NCBI RefSeq assembly: GCF_005434965.1
Contig: NZ_SKCI01000002.1
Span: 492,001 to 556,000 of the forward strand
DNA length: 64,000 bases
DNA from: Marimonas lutisalis
GTDB lineage: Bacteria; Pseudomonadota; Alphaproteobacteria; Rhodobacterales; Rhodobacteraceae
Direction: 5' to 3'
In this document: positions 8,593-14,929 of the stretch, piece by piece
Layout: each line of letters begins with the position of its first letter
How positions within the stretch are numbered: the stretch's first letter is position 1
Position numbers and translations under genes: made by a program
Notes under the pieces: generated by a model
Databases searched by the model: none
What the model was told of the DNA's origin: nothing
What the model saw: the letters and a program-made list of their open reading frames with translations, nothing else

Positions 8593-8715
8593 ATGATACG
8601 CGCCGTTTTGCTTGGACTGCTGATTGTTATCGGCCTTGGTGCGCGCGATGCGATGGCCGCGCGGGGCGACAATCACGGTTGGGCGCCGAAATACTGCGCC
8701 CGGAGTTCCGAGTAA
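8593..8715 (+). CDS. possible small secreted protein or gene remnant
   Basis: A 40-residue frame with a strong GGGAGGGTGGGAG ribosome site. The first 23 residues form a convincing signal peptide (VLLGLLIVIGLGARDAMA). The remaining 17 residues run into the 3' end of the convergent receptor gene (8673-9746) and stop. It could be a genuine tiny exported protein, or the start of a gene whose remainder was lost when the receptor gene arrived. No family is recognised. Confidence 0.35.
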   Translation: MIRAVLLGLLIVIGLGARDAMAARGDNHGWAPKYCARSSE

Positions 8716-9746
8716 CGACCGGATTCGCGCAGGGACAGAAGCGCGCGGTTGATCTCTTCGGTCAGCGGGCTGTCCGTGGGCAGGGCGATGCCGTAGTTTT
8801 CCCGCTTGAACACCCGCGGCAGAAGCCGGCCGCTTTCCGGATGAATGCGCAGATGATGGGCCAAGATCGGGCCGTCGAAGACGACGGCATCGAGGTGGCC
8901 TGCTTCGAAGCCGTCGAGCAACTCCTGCAGCGAGGCCGCGCGGGCGTGGTGGATGCCGCGGCTGTCGAGGAAGGCCGAGGCGGTGGAGCCTTCGATCGTC
9001 GCGATATGTCGCCCGTCGAGATCCGAGAGGGTTTCGATATTGCTTGTGATCGCCTCGACCGTCATGGCCGCGGTGATGCGGGCGACAAAGATCGAGACGA
9101 TGAACAGCGACGAGATCACCAGCAGCACGGCAAAGACGCGACCTGGACGGGATTGCGGAACACGCTCCTCGAAGCCGCCATTCACGACGAGGTTGAGCGC
9201 CCACCAGAAGGAGGGAAAGAGCGCCGAACGCGCTGGACGGTCGAAATAGGGCTGGCGGTGGCGTTCGAACGCCCACATGGCCATTCCGCCGGCAAAGAGA
9301 AGAGCACCCGCGGCAAGGATCGCCAGCAGGATGTCACGCGAAAAGAGCGCGCTTAACAGGCTTCCGCCGCTGGCATCAGCCGGGATCATGATCTGGAGCC
9401 CGGCCTCGAAGATCGGCTGGGAGAAGTCCATGATCTCTTCGCGCGTGGAGGTGATCGAGATGTTCGCGATGGCACCGTCGACGCGCCCGGCCTGGACGGC
9501 GTCGAACATGTCCGCGAATTTTTCCACCCGCGTGAACGAGACATCGCGCCCGATCTCGGTTGCGATGGCGCGCATGAGGTCGATGGAGAACCCGGTATGG
9601 GCGTCGCCCATCTGGTGCGAAAACGGCACGCGTTCAACGGTGGCGAAGGTCAGTGGTTCATCCTGGGCGCGGGGTGGTGTGCCGGTTGCGGCGGTGAACA
9701 GGAAAACACTTACAAGCGCGGCAAGGCGCAACAGGATGGATTGCAT
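8673..9746 (-). CDS. GluR0-like ligand-gated ion channel / substrate-binding receptor
   Basis: A 357-residue protein with the layout of prokaryotic ionotropic glutamate receptors. A signal peptide (to about 28) is followed by the first half of a periplasmic amino-acid binding domain (30-125, with ISITSTREEIMDFSQP). Then come a transmembrane helix (about 138-159), a re-entrant pore segment (about 176-193), a second helix (203-225), and the other half of the binding domain (236-355). Pore and TM2 read FWWALNLVVNGGFEERVP. The TVGYG potassium filter of GluR0 is not there, so ion selectivity is unknown, and it might act as a receptor rather than a channel. It is divergent from 9870. Confidence 0.75.
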   Translation of the reverse strand: MQSILLRLAALVSVFLFTAATGTPPRAQDEPLTFATVERVPFSHQMGDAHTGFSIDLMRAIATEIGRDVSFTRVEKFADMFDAVQAGRVDGAIANISITSTREEIMDFSQPIFEAGLQIMIPADASGGSLLSALFSRDILLAILAAGALLFAGGMAMWAFERHRQPYFDRPARSALFPSFWWALNLVVNGGFEERVPQSRPGRVFAVLLVISSLFIVSIFVARITAAMTVEAITSNIETLSDLDGRHIATIEGSTASAFLDSRGIHHARAASLQELLDGFEAGHLDAVVFDGPILAHHLRIHPESGRLLPRVFKRENYGIALPTDSPLTEEINRALLSLRESGRYSELRAQYFGAQP

Positions 9747-9869: not shown

Positions 9870-10202
9870 ATGGCGAAGACGGACAAAGTGTCAAAACAGC
9901 AGGTCTATACGCTGCTGGTGCAGATCGGGCGCAAGGACGGCGACGGCCTGCCCGAGGGTGCGACAGGCGCGGCCCTGATGATCTATGCCAGCGGCGTGGA
10001 CGAGGCCGAAGCGGTGCGCGAGACGGTTGCGATCCTGAAACAGGCGGACACGGCGCCGCTGGATGTGACGGGCTATGGCACGCTTGAGGAGCGCCTGGCC
10101 GAGGGGCATGACATTTCCGACGAGGAGCGTGCGCTGATGGACCGCGCGCTGGAGGAAAACGCGGTGATCGTGGCGCAGATGACGCCGTTTTTCGAGGATT
10201 GA
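9870..10202 (+). CDS. conserved hypothetical protein upstream of gap
   Basis: A 110-residue soluble, acidic protein. The start is ATG at 9870, preceded by a near-perfect AAGGAGGTG. It is predicted mostly helical in the C-terminal half (EERLAEGHDISDEERALMDRALEENA) and has no signal or membrane segment. I do not recognise the family. It lies 32 bases upstream of gap in the same direction and is probably co-transcribed with it. Confidence 0.7.
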   Translation: MAKTDKVSKQQVYTLLVQIGRKDGDGLPEGATGAALMIYASGVDEAEAVRETVAILKQADTAPLDVTGYGTLEERLAEGHDISDEERALMDRALEENAVIVAQMTPFFED

Positions 10203-11434: not shown

Positions 11435-11791
11435 ATGATGGCGGGATTTCTGACGACGCATGTTCTGGACACCGCGCGGGGATGCCCGGCGCAAGGGCTG
11501 ACGATCGCGCTTTACCGGATCGAGGGCGGAGAGCGGCGGCACCTGCGCACGCTGGTGACCAATGACGATGGCCGCACGGATGAGCAGATCCTGCCCGCAT
11601 CGGAATTCAGGATCGGGGACTACGAGCTGGTATTCCAGGCCGGCGACTATCTGCGGGCCACCGGGCAGGCGGGGGACGCACCGCTGTTCATCGACGAGGT
11701 GCCGATCCGCTTTGGCATGAACGAGGCGACGCATTACCACGTGCCGCTGCTGCTGTCGCCCTATGGCTATTCGACCTATCGCGGCAGCTGA
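11435..11791 (+). CDS. uraH: 5-hydroxyisourate hydrolase
   Basis: Hydrolyses 5-hydroxyisourate, the product of urate oxidation, to OHCU. The 118-residue transthyretin-like protein has the N-terminal [13 protein letters not shown] histidine motif, a central RT ([13 protein letters not shown]), and the C-terminal YRGS tetrapeptide that marks HIU hydrolases rather than transthyretins. Two consecutive ATGs (11435, 11438) follow CGGAGGGAGT, and either may be used. The 3' end overlaps the convergent LysR gene by 16 bases. It begins the purine-degradation block. Confidence 0.92.
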
Positions 11792-12687
11792 AGCGCGTCG
11801 GCCATGCGGGTGGCCATGAAATCGAGAAAGAGACGCATTTTCGGATCCTGCCGGCGGCGGTGGGCGTAGAGTGCACCGAGTGTCACCGGCACAGGCGGGG
11901 TGTGTTCAAGCACCGGGACCAGCGCGCCTGTGGCAAGGTGATCGGCCACCTCGAAGACGGGTTTGAGGATGATGCCCTGGCCATCGAGCGCCCAGTTGGT
12001 GAGCACGTCGCCATCGTCGGATTCGAACGGGCCGGTGACGGCGAAGCGTTTCACGCCGTCGGGCATTTGCAGCGGCCATTGAAACTCGGGCGCGCCGGGA
12101 TAGCGCAGGTTGAGGCAGTCATGCGCGCCGGTGGTCAGATCAGCGGGCGTGGCCGGGGTGCCGCGCGCGGCAAGGTAGGAAGGGGCTGCACAAAGCAGGC
12201 GCGGGCAATCGGCGATCTTGCGGATGCGCAGGGTGCTGTCTTCGGGCTGGCCGAGGAAGAAGACGATGTCGAGCCCTTCGGCGGTGAGGTCGAGCTTGCG
12301 ATCCGACAGGCGCAGGCGGATGTTGATGAGCGGGTATTGCGCCTTGAAGGCGGGCACCAGCGGCGCGATGAGGCGGCGACCGATGCCGAGAGGCGCGGCG
12401 ACATAGATCGTGCCGCGGGGATCTGCGGTGATCGAGGTGACGGCTGCCTCGGCCTCGGTCACCGCGTCAAGAATGCGCTGGGCGCCTTCGTAGAAAATGC
12501 GGCCCTGTTCGGTTGCGTTGAGCATCCGTGTCGTGCGCTGGAAGAGGCGGACGTTCAGGTGTTCCTCGAGCGTGGAGATGCGGGCCGAGGCGACGGCAGG
12601 TGAAATGCGCTGATCGCGCGCGGCCGCGGACATGGAGCCAAGTTCGTAGACGCGGACGAATGTGCGGATATTGTCGAGATAGGACAT
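11776..12687 (-). CDS. LysR family transcriptional regulator, purine cluster copy 1
   Basis: A 303-residue regulator with an N-terminal winged helix-turn-helix ([20 protein letters not shown], about 17-36) and a C-terminal inducer-binding domain. The start ATG at 12687 ([10 protein letters not shown]) fits the family. It is divergent from puuD with a 109-base shared control region, so it probably regulates puuD and perhaps uraH. It is clearly paralogous to the LysR at 14027: both have DDGDVLTxWAL and matching linker motifs. The likely inducer is a purine or urate derivative, an inference from context. Confidence 0.88.
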
Positions 12688-12711
12688 GGTGCGACCGTTT
12701 TTCAGGATTTT

Positions 12712-12720
12712 TTGAAAGTG
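12712..12720 (+). promoter_or_regulatory. candidate shared motif TTGAAAGTG in the lysR/puuD control region
   Basis: TTGAAAGTG occurs here, 77 bases before the puuD ATG, and again at 14990-14998, 79 bases before the xdhA ATG. Both lie in LysR-divergent intergenic regions of the same pathway. It could be a -35-like element or part of a shared operator. Confidence 0.35.
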
Positions 12721-12796
12721 CTGGGCTTTTTTCGGCAGTTCAAGGGAAAACCGCGCTGCGCTAGACTGCGGCAATTGCGACAGGGGAGATGGCGGG

Positions 12797-14041
12797 ATGA
12801 TGGAAACGGCGATCCTTTGGGACTGGCTGGCCTTCGCGGTGCGATGGCTTCACGTGATCACGGCGATCGCGTGGATCGGCTCGTCCTTCTACTTCATCGC
12901 GCTGGACCTGGGCCTGCGCCGCGACGGCGAGCTGGGCGGCGCCGATGGCGAGGAATGGCAGGTGCATGGCGGCGGGTTCTATCACATCCGCAAATACCTG
13001 GTGGCGCCCGAGGCAATGCCCGAGCACCTGACATGGTTCAAATGGGAGAGCTATTCGACCTGGCTGTCGGGGGCGGCGCTGTTGATGATCGTCTACTGGG
13101 CTGGAGGAGAGCTTTACCTGCTGGACCAGCACAAGGCGGAGCTGGCGCTGTGGCAGGGGATCCTGATTTCGGCGGCATCGCTGACCATCGGCTGGCTGGT
13201 GTATGATTTCCTGTGCAAGAGCGGGCTGGGCGAGAAACCAACGGCATTGATGCTGTTGCTGTTCGTGCTGCTGGTGGCGATGGGCTGGGGCTATAACCAG
13301 ATCTTCACCGGGCGGGCGATGATGCTGCACCTGGGCGCGTTCACCGCCACGATCATGACGGCCAACGTGTTCTTCATCATCATGCCGAACCAGAGGATCG
13401 TGGTGGCCGACCTGAAGGCGGGCCGCAAGCCCGATCCGAAATACGGCAAGATCGCCAAGCTGCGCTCGACCCACAACAACTATCTGACGCTGCCGGTGAT
13501 CTTCCTGATGTTGTCGAACCATTACCCGCTGGCCTTTGCCACCCAATACAACTGGGTGATCGCGGCGCTGGTGTTCCTGATGGGTGTGACGATCCGGCAT
13601 TTCTTCAATTCGATGCACGCCCGCAAAGGGATGCCGTGGTGGACCTGGGGCGTGACCGCGATGCTGTTCCTGGCGATCGTCTGGCTGTCCAGCCTTGGAA
13701 ATGGGGCCGCGCCGGAGGAAGAAGCGGCGCTGACCCCCGCGCAGGCGCGGTTTGCCGAGGCCGAGGGCTTTGGCGATGTGGTGGACCTGGTGATGGGCAA
13801 TTGTTCGATGTGCCATGCGACCGAGCCGGGATATCCGGGGATCGGGCATGCGCCCAAGGGCGTGATCCTGGAGACCGAGGCCCAGGTGGCCGCGCATGCG
13901 CGCGAGATCTACCTGCAGGCGGGGCTGAGCAACGCGATGCCGCCGCCGAATGCCAGCTGGCTTGAAGCCGCGGACCGCCGGGTGATCCAGCGGTGGTACC
14001 GTGCGGCGACGGGGACCGATCTGGCCCTAGCCGGGGAATAA
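12797..14041 (+). CDS. puuD: urate hydroxylase PuuD with C-terminal cytochrome c domain
   Basis: A membrane enzyme that oxidises urate to 5-hydroxyisourate and passes electrons to its own cytochrome domain instead of O2. The N-terminal about 310 residues hold eight or so hydrophobic helices with conserved histidines (WLHVITAIAWIGSSFYF, FYHIRKY, MMLHLGAFTA, STHNNYLTLP). The C-terminal about 90 residues are a heme-binding domain with CSMCH (C336, C339, H340). Length 414. It sits between its LysR and the xdh operon. The last 15 bases overlap the convergent LysR gene. Confidence 0.95.
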   Translation: MMETAILWDWLAFAVRWLHVITAIAWIGSSFYFIALDLGLRRDGELGGADGEEWQVHGGGFYHIRKYLVAPEAMPEHLTWFKWESYSTWLSGAALLMIVYWAGGELYLLDQHKAELALWQGILISAASLTIGWLVYDFLCKSGLGEKPTALMLLLFVLLVAMGWGYNQIFTGRAMMLHLGAFTATIMTANVFFIIMPNQRIVVADLKAGRKPDPKYGKIAKLRSTHNNYLTLPVIFLMLSNHYPLAFATQYNWVIAALVFLMGVTIRHFFNSMHARKGMPWWTWGVTAMLFLAIVWLSSLGNGAAPEEEAALTPAQARFAEAEGFGDVVDLVMGNCSMCHATEPGYPGIGHAPKGVILETEAQVAAHAREIYLQAGLSNAMPPPNASWLEAADRRVIQRWYRAATGTDLALAGE

Positions 14042-14929
14042 GCCGCGGGTTTCATCGACGACATAGTCGATGAAGAGGCGCAGCTTCGGGTCCTGCAGTT
14101 TGCGGTGGGGATAGAGGCAGGCGAAGGTCGAGGGCATGGGGGGCGTGCGCGGCAGAACCTCGACCAAAGCCCCGGATGCGATATGCTCGTCGACATCGAA
14201 ACGGGGCTTGTTGGCGATGCCGTGGCCGGCGAGTGCCCAATCGGTGAGCACATCGCCATCGTCCGCGTCGAACCGTCCGGAGACATCGAGTCTGACAGGG
14301 CCGTCCGGGGCCTGAAGCGTCCAGAAATACTCGGGGCTGCGTGGAAAGCGCAGCAGCAGGCAATTGTGGTTTTCAAGCAGGTCCTGCGGTGACTTTGGGG
14401 TGCCATGACTCTCGAGATAGCCGGGAGCCGCGACCAGAACACGGGGGCATGTCGCGATCTTGCGCAGTTTCAGGGTGCTGTCCTGGAGTTCGCCCAGGAA
14501 GAATGCGAGGTCGAGCCGGTCTTCGAGCATGTCGATCTTGCGGTCCGAGAGGCGCAGCTGGATCTGAACATCGGGGTAGATGGCGTTGAAGGCGGGCACC
14601 AGCGGGGCGATGATGCGTCGCCCGACGCCCAGCGGAGCCGAGACCCGCACCGCCCCACGCGGGGCGCCGGCGAAGCCCGCGACGACGGCCTCGGCTTCGT
14701 CGAGGGTGTCGATGACGCGGCGCGCGTGGTTGTAGAAGAGTTCGCCCGCTTCGGTCGGGCGCAGCTTGCGGGTGGTGCGGTTGAAGAGGCGTACGCCGAG
14801 GCGCTTTTCCAGTTCCTTGATGCGGTTGGAAGCGACGGCGGGGGTGAGCCGCATGTCGCGCCCGCCCGCCGTGATCGAACCCAGTTCGACCACGCGCACG
14901 AAAACCTTGAGACTTTCAACATAAGGCAT
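14027..14929 (-). CDS. LysR family transcriptional regulator, purine cluster copy 2
   Basis: A 300-residue LysR regulator with HTH residues GSITAGGRDMRLTPAVASNR and effector domain motifs (RLSDRKIDM, DDGDVLTDWALAGHG). It is divergent from xdhA with 147 bases between, and is therefore the likely regulator of xdhABC-guaD. It overlaps the end of puuD by 15 bases, mirroring the uraH/LysR overlap 2.2 kb upstream. Its resemblance to the first LysR suggests that the two arose by duplication within the cluster. Confidence 0.88.
   Translation of the reverse strand: MPYVESLKVFVRVVELGSITAGGRDMRLTPAVASNRIKELEKRLGVRLFNRTTRKLRPTEAGELFYNHARRVIDTLDEAEAVVAGFAGAPRGAVRVSAPLGVGRRIIAPLVPAFNAIYPDVQIQLRLSDRKIDMLEDRLDLAFFLGELQDSTLKLRKIATCPRVLVAAPGYLESHGTPKSPQDLLENHNCLLLRFPRSPEYFWTLQAPDGPVRLDVSGRFDADDGDVLTDWALAGHGIANKPRFDVDEHIASGALVEVLPRTPPMPSTFACLYPHRKLQDPKLRLFIDYVVDETRGLFPG

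Follow-up and report, generated by a model that had tools for sequence, protein, structure and literature searches.

Among bacterial glutamate receptors, Synechocystis GluR0 (ligand core 1ii5) and Nostoc NpGluR0 (ligand core 2pyy) have two transmembrane (TM) helices and neither an M4 helix nor an N-terminal domain. GluR0 has the filter TVGYG and is K+-selective, as stated in extracts of two papers (PMC6385376, PMC12226733). An extract of Ger et al. 2010 (PMC2950845) contrasts 12 prokaryotic receptors carrying a K+ filter, Group 1, with 10 whose P regions are unrecognised, 'Group 2', and describes Group 2 as closer than Group 1 to the human iGluRs. The receptor described here is likewise of the two-TM build of GluR0 and NpGluR0, but it has NGGFEE where GluR0 has TVGYG. 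With Group 2 it has in common the order S1-TM-P-TM-S2, a P region unlike any known selectivity, and the retained binding Arg and Asp; the same extract (PMC2950845) gives the 10 sequences by accession and describes neither NGGFEE nor a Q/R/N layout. With the animal AMPA and NMDA receptors (GluA2, GluN1) it shares the pore fold, an amide at the Q/R/N site and Gly at +2. Unlike them, it is a protein of 357 aa with two TM helices, in which the N-terminal domain and M4 are absent, and the identity in structure alignments is only about 20%. Plant GLR3.4 has a related pore, but other filter residues and further domains. The amino-acid ABC substrate-binding proteins (GlnH and GlnP domains) have the same fold of the ligand domain without an inserted pore.

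The gene is located at 8673–9746 of the window, i.e., the whole stretch of 64,000 nucleotides of Marimonas lutisalis DNA that was analysed. The original prediction had named this ORF without a strand; it exists on the minus strand, with ATG at 9746 and the stop at 8673, and encodes 357 aa (P0001), while the plus strand of the same interval has an in-frame stop and no equivalent protein. A search of the whole source genome gave no other match of this kind. In Pfam, SBP_bac_3 (residues 38–354, E 4.8e-25) is interrupted by a membrane segment, and Lig_chan (residues 148–244, E 7.8e-12) and Lig_chan-Glu_bd (residues 48–122, E 1.3e-8) are also found; all three are above their cut-offs and occur in 62/62 receptor family members scanned.

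An AlphaFold2 model of the receptor was built from 62 sequences (mean pLDDT 87.4, pTM 0.67). From the N-terminus, and always on the minus strand, the chain begins with a hydrophobic segment (residues 1–27, 9666–9746), probably a signal peptide (model helix 2–20; by eye), followed by S1, the first ligand-binding half (residues 30–127, 9366–9659), assigned by SBP_bac_3 and Lig_chan-Glu_bd. Then come the modelled M1 helix (residues 137–161, 9264–9338), the pore helix (residues 172–188, 9183–9233) with the conserved FWWALNLVV, and a loop (residues 189–199), the pore helix stopping in the model exactly at the start of NGGFEER. The modelled M2 helix (residues 200–234, 9045–9149), with the gate region, is the counterpart of the animal-receptor M3, as HMMER aligns it to the GluA2 region SYTANLAAFLTVE, and S2, the second ligand-binding half (residues 235–354, 8685–9044), closes the chain and is assigned by Pfam and the 2pyy alignment. 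Foldseek gave AMPA receptors as the top full-length matches of the model among those listed (E 1.9e-21), and VIA aligned the AMPA receptor 8ss7_A with Z 24.3 and 3.8 A across 318 residues; both match lists are taken up by one family, and families missing there may still match.

By Pfam, the AlphaFold2 model and the structural matches to AMPA receptors, the protein is a prokaryotic ionotropic glutamate receptor of the two-TM type. The order S1, TM1, pore loop, TM2, S2 proposed in the original prediction was confirmed by Pfam and the model. Two doubts raised there were also checked, namely that the central segments might not span the membrane and that the protein might belong to a non-channel two-TM family: the segments are modelled as M1, a re-entrant pore helix and M2, and the homology is to Lig_chan, AMPA receptors, GLR3.4 and MlotiK1, with no non-channel two-TM family seen. 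A continuous, soluble, two-lobed ABC substrate-binding protein was ruled out, since M1-P-M2 is inserted between the lobes (Pfam, AlphaFold2); the NCBIfam scores of the receptor for amino-acid ABC substrate-binding proteins are far under the equivalog cut-offs.

The ligand core matches 2pyy, i.e., NpGluR0 with L-glutamate, with phmmer 7.5e-34 and VIA Z 26.7, and 1ii5 (GluR0) with VIA Z 24.9. Arg102 in S1 and Asp291 in S2 are invariant in 62/62 rows of alignment A2, which comprises 61 of 80 named loci (L087 was dropped for a stop in its range and 18 others for size), and the alignment with 2pyy preserves both. In the extract of Ger et al. (PMC2950845), the matching Arg binds the alpha-carboxyl and the matching Asp the alpha-amino group of the ligand.

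As for the filter, the segment LVVNGGFEERVP quoted in the original prediction was found at residues 186–197, and its claim of a missing K+ signature stands: NGGFEE (residues 189–194) takes the place of a TVGYG-type filter, and the TVGYG-type sequence of the K+-selective GluR0 group is absent. The pore loops align ungapped (WW..NGGFEERVP vs WW..TVGYGDKxP of the TVGYGD-type relatives), so that NGGFEE replaces TVGYGD in register, with the WW-to-P spacing unchanged. The filter position NGGFEER (residues 189–195, 9162–9182, minus strand) corresponds to TVGYGDK of GluR0-type relatives.

The conservation of the filter was measured in a whole-protein search of 295 Rhodobacteraceae-type genomes, which gave 64 places in 63 genomes with at least 48% identity, taken as orthologues (24 of the other 63 matches form alignment A1). 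NGGFEER is exact in 61 of these 64, and the other three read NGGFEVN (L055), NGSFEER and SGGFGQN (L084). This is the fair sample, since the 80 named loci were fetched by the patterns NGGFEERxP or FP[SA]FWWAL and their 79/80 NGGFEER is therefore biased. Some of the Group 2 accessions, e.g., YP_168531.1, are presumably orthologues from the Roseobacter group. Across the 64 orthologues, no 16-residue window of the protein is more conserved than FWWALNLVVNGGFEER, which includes the filter (0.979, against 0.685 for the median window); in alignment A2, E193 is invariant and E194 nearly so. Moreover, the 61 NGGFEER copies are encoded by 49 distinct DNA strings, so the constraint acts on the protein. 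A pore loop that is the most conserved part, with varying codons and fixed residues, argues against a pore without use, and these alignments identify NGGFEE as a conserved filter and not a product of decay.

In a single-sequence search of solved structures, residues 128–245 alone match GluA2 (2.8e-5), plant GLR3.4 (6.6e-5) and the K+ channel MlotiK1 (8.4e-5), and because the membrane segment gives these matches without the binding domain, the match to P-loop channels is not due to chance. The MlotiK1 match and an Ion_trans_2 match below its Pfam cut-off mean that the resemblance is not exclusively eukaryotic. When a membrane-segment profile of 51 family members was used (alignment A3, with 50 of the 61 loci of A2), the best 60 of 173 PDB rows were all eukaryotic glutamate receptors (top 3e-7), with GLR3.4 the second-nearest kind of pore among the matches listed (2.5e-6), although this match rests also on M2 and the S2 linker, beyond the filter itself. 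In contrast, the same segment from 12 TVGYG-/TIGYG-type bacterial relatives, used as a control, finds K+ channels (top 2.6e-14, best 60 of 469 rows).

HMMER pairs three residues with GluA2: N189 with the Gln of the Q/R site, G191 with the +2 Gly and E193 with the +4 Asp. The pore alignment that the original prediction had suggested as a check is thus ungapped to the TVGYGD relatives, and the one with GluA2 puts N189 at the Q/R/N site and E193 at the position of the +4 acid. By eye, NSGIGEGAP of GluN1 (the fragment was confirmed against the PDB) overlays NGGFEERVP ungapped, and the acid, which lies at +4 in GluA2, lies at +5 in NSGIGE. The likeness in Asn, Gly and acid consists of three positions only, and Gly at +2 is also present in TVGYG.

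With a probability of roughly 0.7, the protein would be an amino-acid-gated, two-TM prokaryotic iGluR whose pore is a non-K+-selective cation channel, possibly Ca2+-permeable and polyamine-sensitive. Here we infer the tetramer, ligand, gating, conduction and selectivity as follows. Four subunits probably assemble into one channel, and glutamate or a similar amino acid would bind in the periplasm between S1 and S2. The clamshell would close on the amino acid and pull the M2 helices apart, so that the pore opens. Cations would then pass the Q/R/N position, where the Asn (N189) of the four subunits would form a ring, with G191 as the Gly at +2, while E193 (+4) and E194 (+5) would lie at the cytoplasmic side of the pore; the M1-P linker is Arg-rich by eye, as expected of a cytoplasmic loop. 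With NGGFEE, strict K+ selectivity should be lost and the pore should be non-selective among cations, and what passes is probably cations other than K+ alone, e.g., sodium or calcium. According to the extract of PMC12226733, the residue at a Q/R/N site governs Ca2+ permeation and the +4 acid is critical to polyamine block. The absence of the binding Arg from some more distant relatives (mixed alignment, 52 rows) counts against this reading, as does the divergent filter SGGFGQN of the orthologue L084.

It is also conceivable, but improbable, that the acidic rings of E193 and E194 give the pore a preference for divalent cations or sodium, i.e., Ca2+ or Na+, and that it is not non-selective. Rings of Glu or Asp occur in bacterial Na+ and Ca2+ channels, the comparison on which this idea draws. 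Both acids are kept within NGGFEER in 61/64 orthologues, and the NMDA receptor filter is described in an extract (PMC13246513) as an Asn cage that dehydrates and passes Ca2+. Nevertheless, the acids vary in NGGFEVN and SGGFGQN, and the nearest solved pores by profile, among the matches listed, are AMPA and plant glutamate receptors and not voltage-gated Na+ or Ca2+ channels.

The original prediction had offered two alternatives, a channel of other selectivity or a receptor that has lost conduction and, as we phrase it, signals by conformational change. The latter could appeal to the missing K+ signature, and no electrical recording of a current from an NGGFEE-type member was found in a literature search that covered few subscription papers. 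However, the fixed residues under varying codons are the opposite of decay, and at the 80 loci neither a partner domain nor a constant signalling neighbour was seen. Of the two alternatives we prefer other selectivity, since the pore loop in the 64 orthologues is the most conserved part and is constrained at the protein level, as the 49 DNA spellings indicate; the non-conducting receptor is accordingly rated rather unlikely, and conduction is predicted. Least likely is a channel that is still K+-selective and works like GluR0, since T→N, V→G and second Gly→Glu have changed, and the family profile leads to eukaryotic receptors where the TVGYG-type control leads to K+ channels (best 60 rows each), even though Gly is kept at the first Gly of GYG, Phe is an aromatic at the Tyr position and the single-sequence query matches MlotiK1.

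In the genomes searched, the NGGFEE receptor is found only in Rhodobacteraceae-type bacteria, where its constant site adjoins dapD. Each of the 80 named loci carries either the label Rhodobacteraceae or the broader one Alphaproteobacteria. Among 289 genomes across the class, five of seven matches lie outside the Rhodobacteraceae and none of the five has NGGFEE, one of them being without a pore in the aligned part. In the order, 40/196 genomes, all Rhodobacteraceae, contain the NGGFEER DNA pattern, and in the phylum 8/398 do, four in Rhodobacteraceae and four outside in unrelated reading frames. Among plasmids, 138 records of a collection match, all below 60% identity, and the ten fetched carry other filters.

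A tree of 48 rows gives the NGG rows a single origin (support 100/99) with SGGFGQN nested inside; their nearest relatives there are the NASF-type receptors, and the TVGYG and TIGYG rows likewise need one change; this tree has long branches and a root for drawing only, and L169, L171, L173 and L072 were dropped beforehand. The NASF-type receptors closest to the NGGFEE clade (L031 and L032, Rhodobacteraceae-type) have the filter NASFTIF.

Other filters were also observed. In a big group of two-TM receptors from Rhizobiaceae, Paracoccus and others (L176, L178, L180–L183, L039, L040), an SGK/SGR-type loop replaces TVGYG, and the SGK-type pore profile matches almost nothing solved (GLR3.4 at 0.013). 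Receptor-like proteins of Vibrio campbellii and Photobacterium (L177, L179) have KGPFN at the filter position. Four receptor-like genes of another family of the class (L169, L172–L174) stand in a row on one contig (G427:C64:3954-9538) and have unusual filters, e.g., TSENVVDGE and VLNEAGDV. NGGFEER and TVGYGDK receptors occur together in one genome in G003 (L082 and L034) and G102 (L027 and L035).

At the genomic site, dapD is convergent and downstream of the receptor in 70/80 loci (69/76 with a 1.5 kb flank). A 110-aa protein (9870–10202, plus strand, in the window) adjoins the receptor in 71/80 loci, 53 upstream and 18 downstream, and a LOG-like protein is further off in 64/80. These, the only stable neighbours at the 80 loci, suggest no function for the receptor. 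All of 12 genomes picked for lacking a close receptor have dapD, and the 110-aa protein was found beside it in 8/12; in those eight it is about 30 to 1000 bases from dapD, with no room for a receptor gene. Since dapD and the 110-aa protein stay close without it, the receptor is an intermittent occupant of one fixed site. Elsewhere in the window, 11435–14929 holds probable urate-degradation genes, named from their translations: an HIU-hydrolase-like gene (11435–11791), a membrane protein with a c-type haem motif (12797–14041), and LysR-type regulators on either side (11776–12774 and 14027–14929, both minus).

Prokaryotic receptors with unrecognised pore regions are already known as Group 2 in the extract of Ger et al. 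2010 (PMC2950845). A literature text search found no paper with NGGFEE, NGGFEER or VNGGFEE in its text. What appears to be new, as read from the sequences, is the NGGFEE filter as a trait that the family conserves, the way it lines up with the Q/R/N and +4 sites, the difference in profile matches from the TVGYG relatives, and the taxa and genomic site in which the receptor occurs. The architecture, the homology, the register of the filter and its conservation are demonstrated here. More tentatively, and with the odds against it, the filter may have the animal layout (Asn at Q/R/N, Gly at +2, acid at +4) in a Na+/Ca2+ channel that is gated by an amino acid and blocked by polyamines, which would then be a simple bacterial model, perhaps a relative, of the ancestral pore of eukaryotic receptors.

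In the extracts consulted, the bacterial receptor that comes up repeatedly as functionally characterised is GluR0, which is K+-selective; the filter of animal receptors is non-selective and Ca2+-permeable. A two-TM receptor of 357 residues with Asn at Q/R/N and an acid at +4 would make the change from a K+ filter to the animal one directly testable, with TVGYG relatives for comparison, some of which share genomes with NGGFEER receptors. If the reading is true, some marine bacteria would respond to an amino acid by cation entry.
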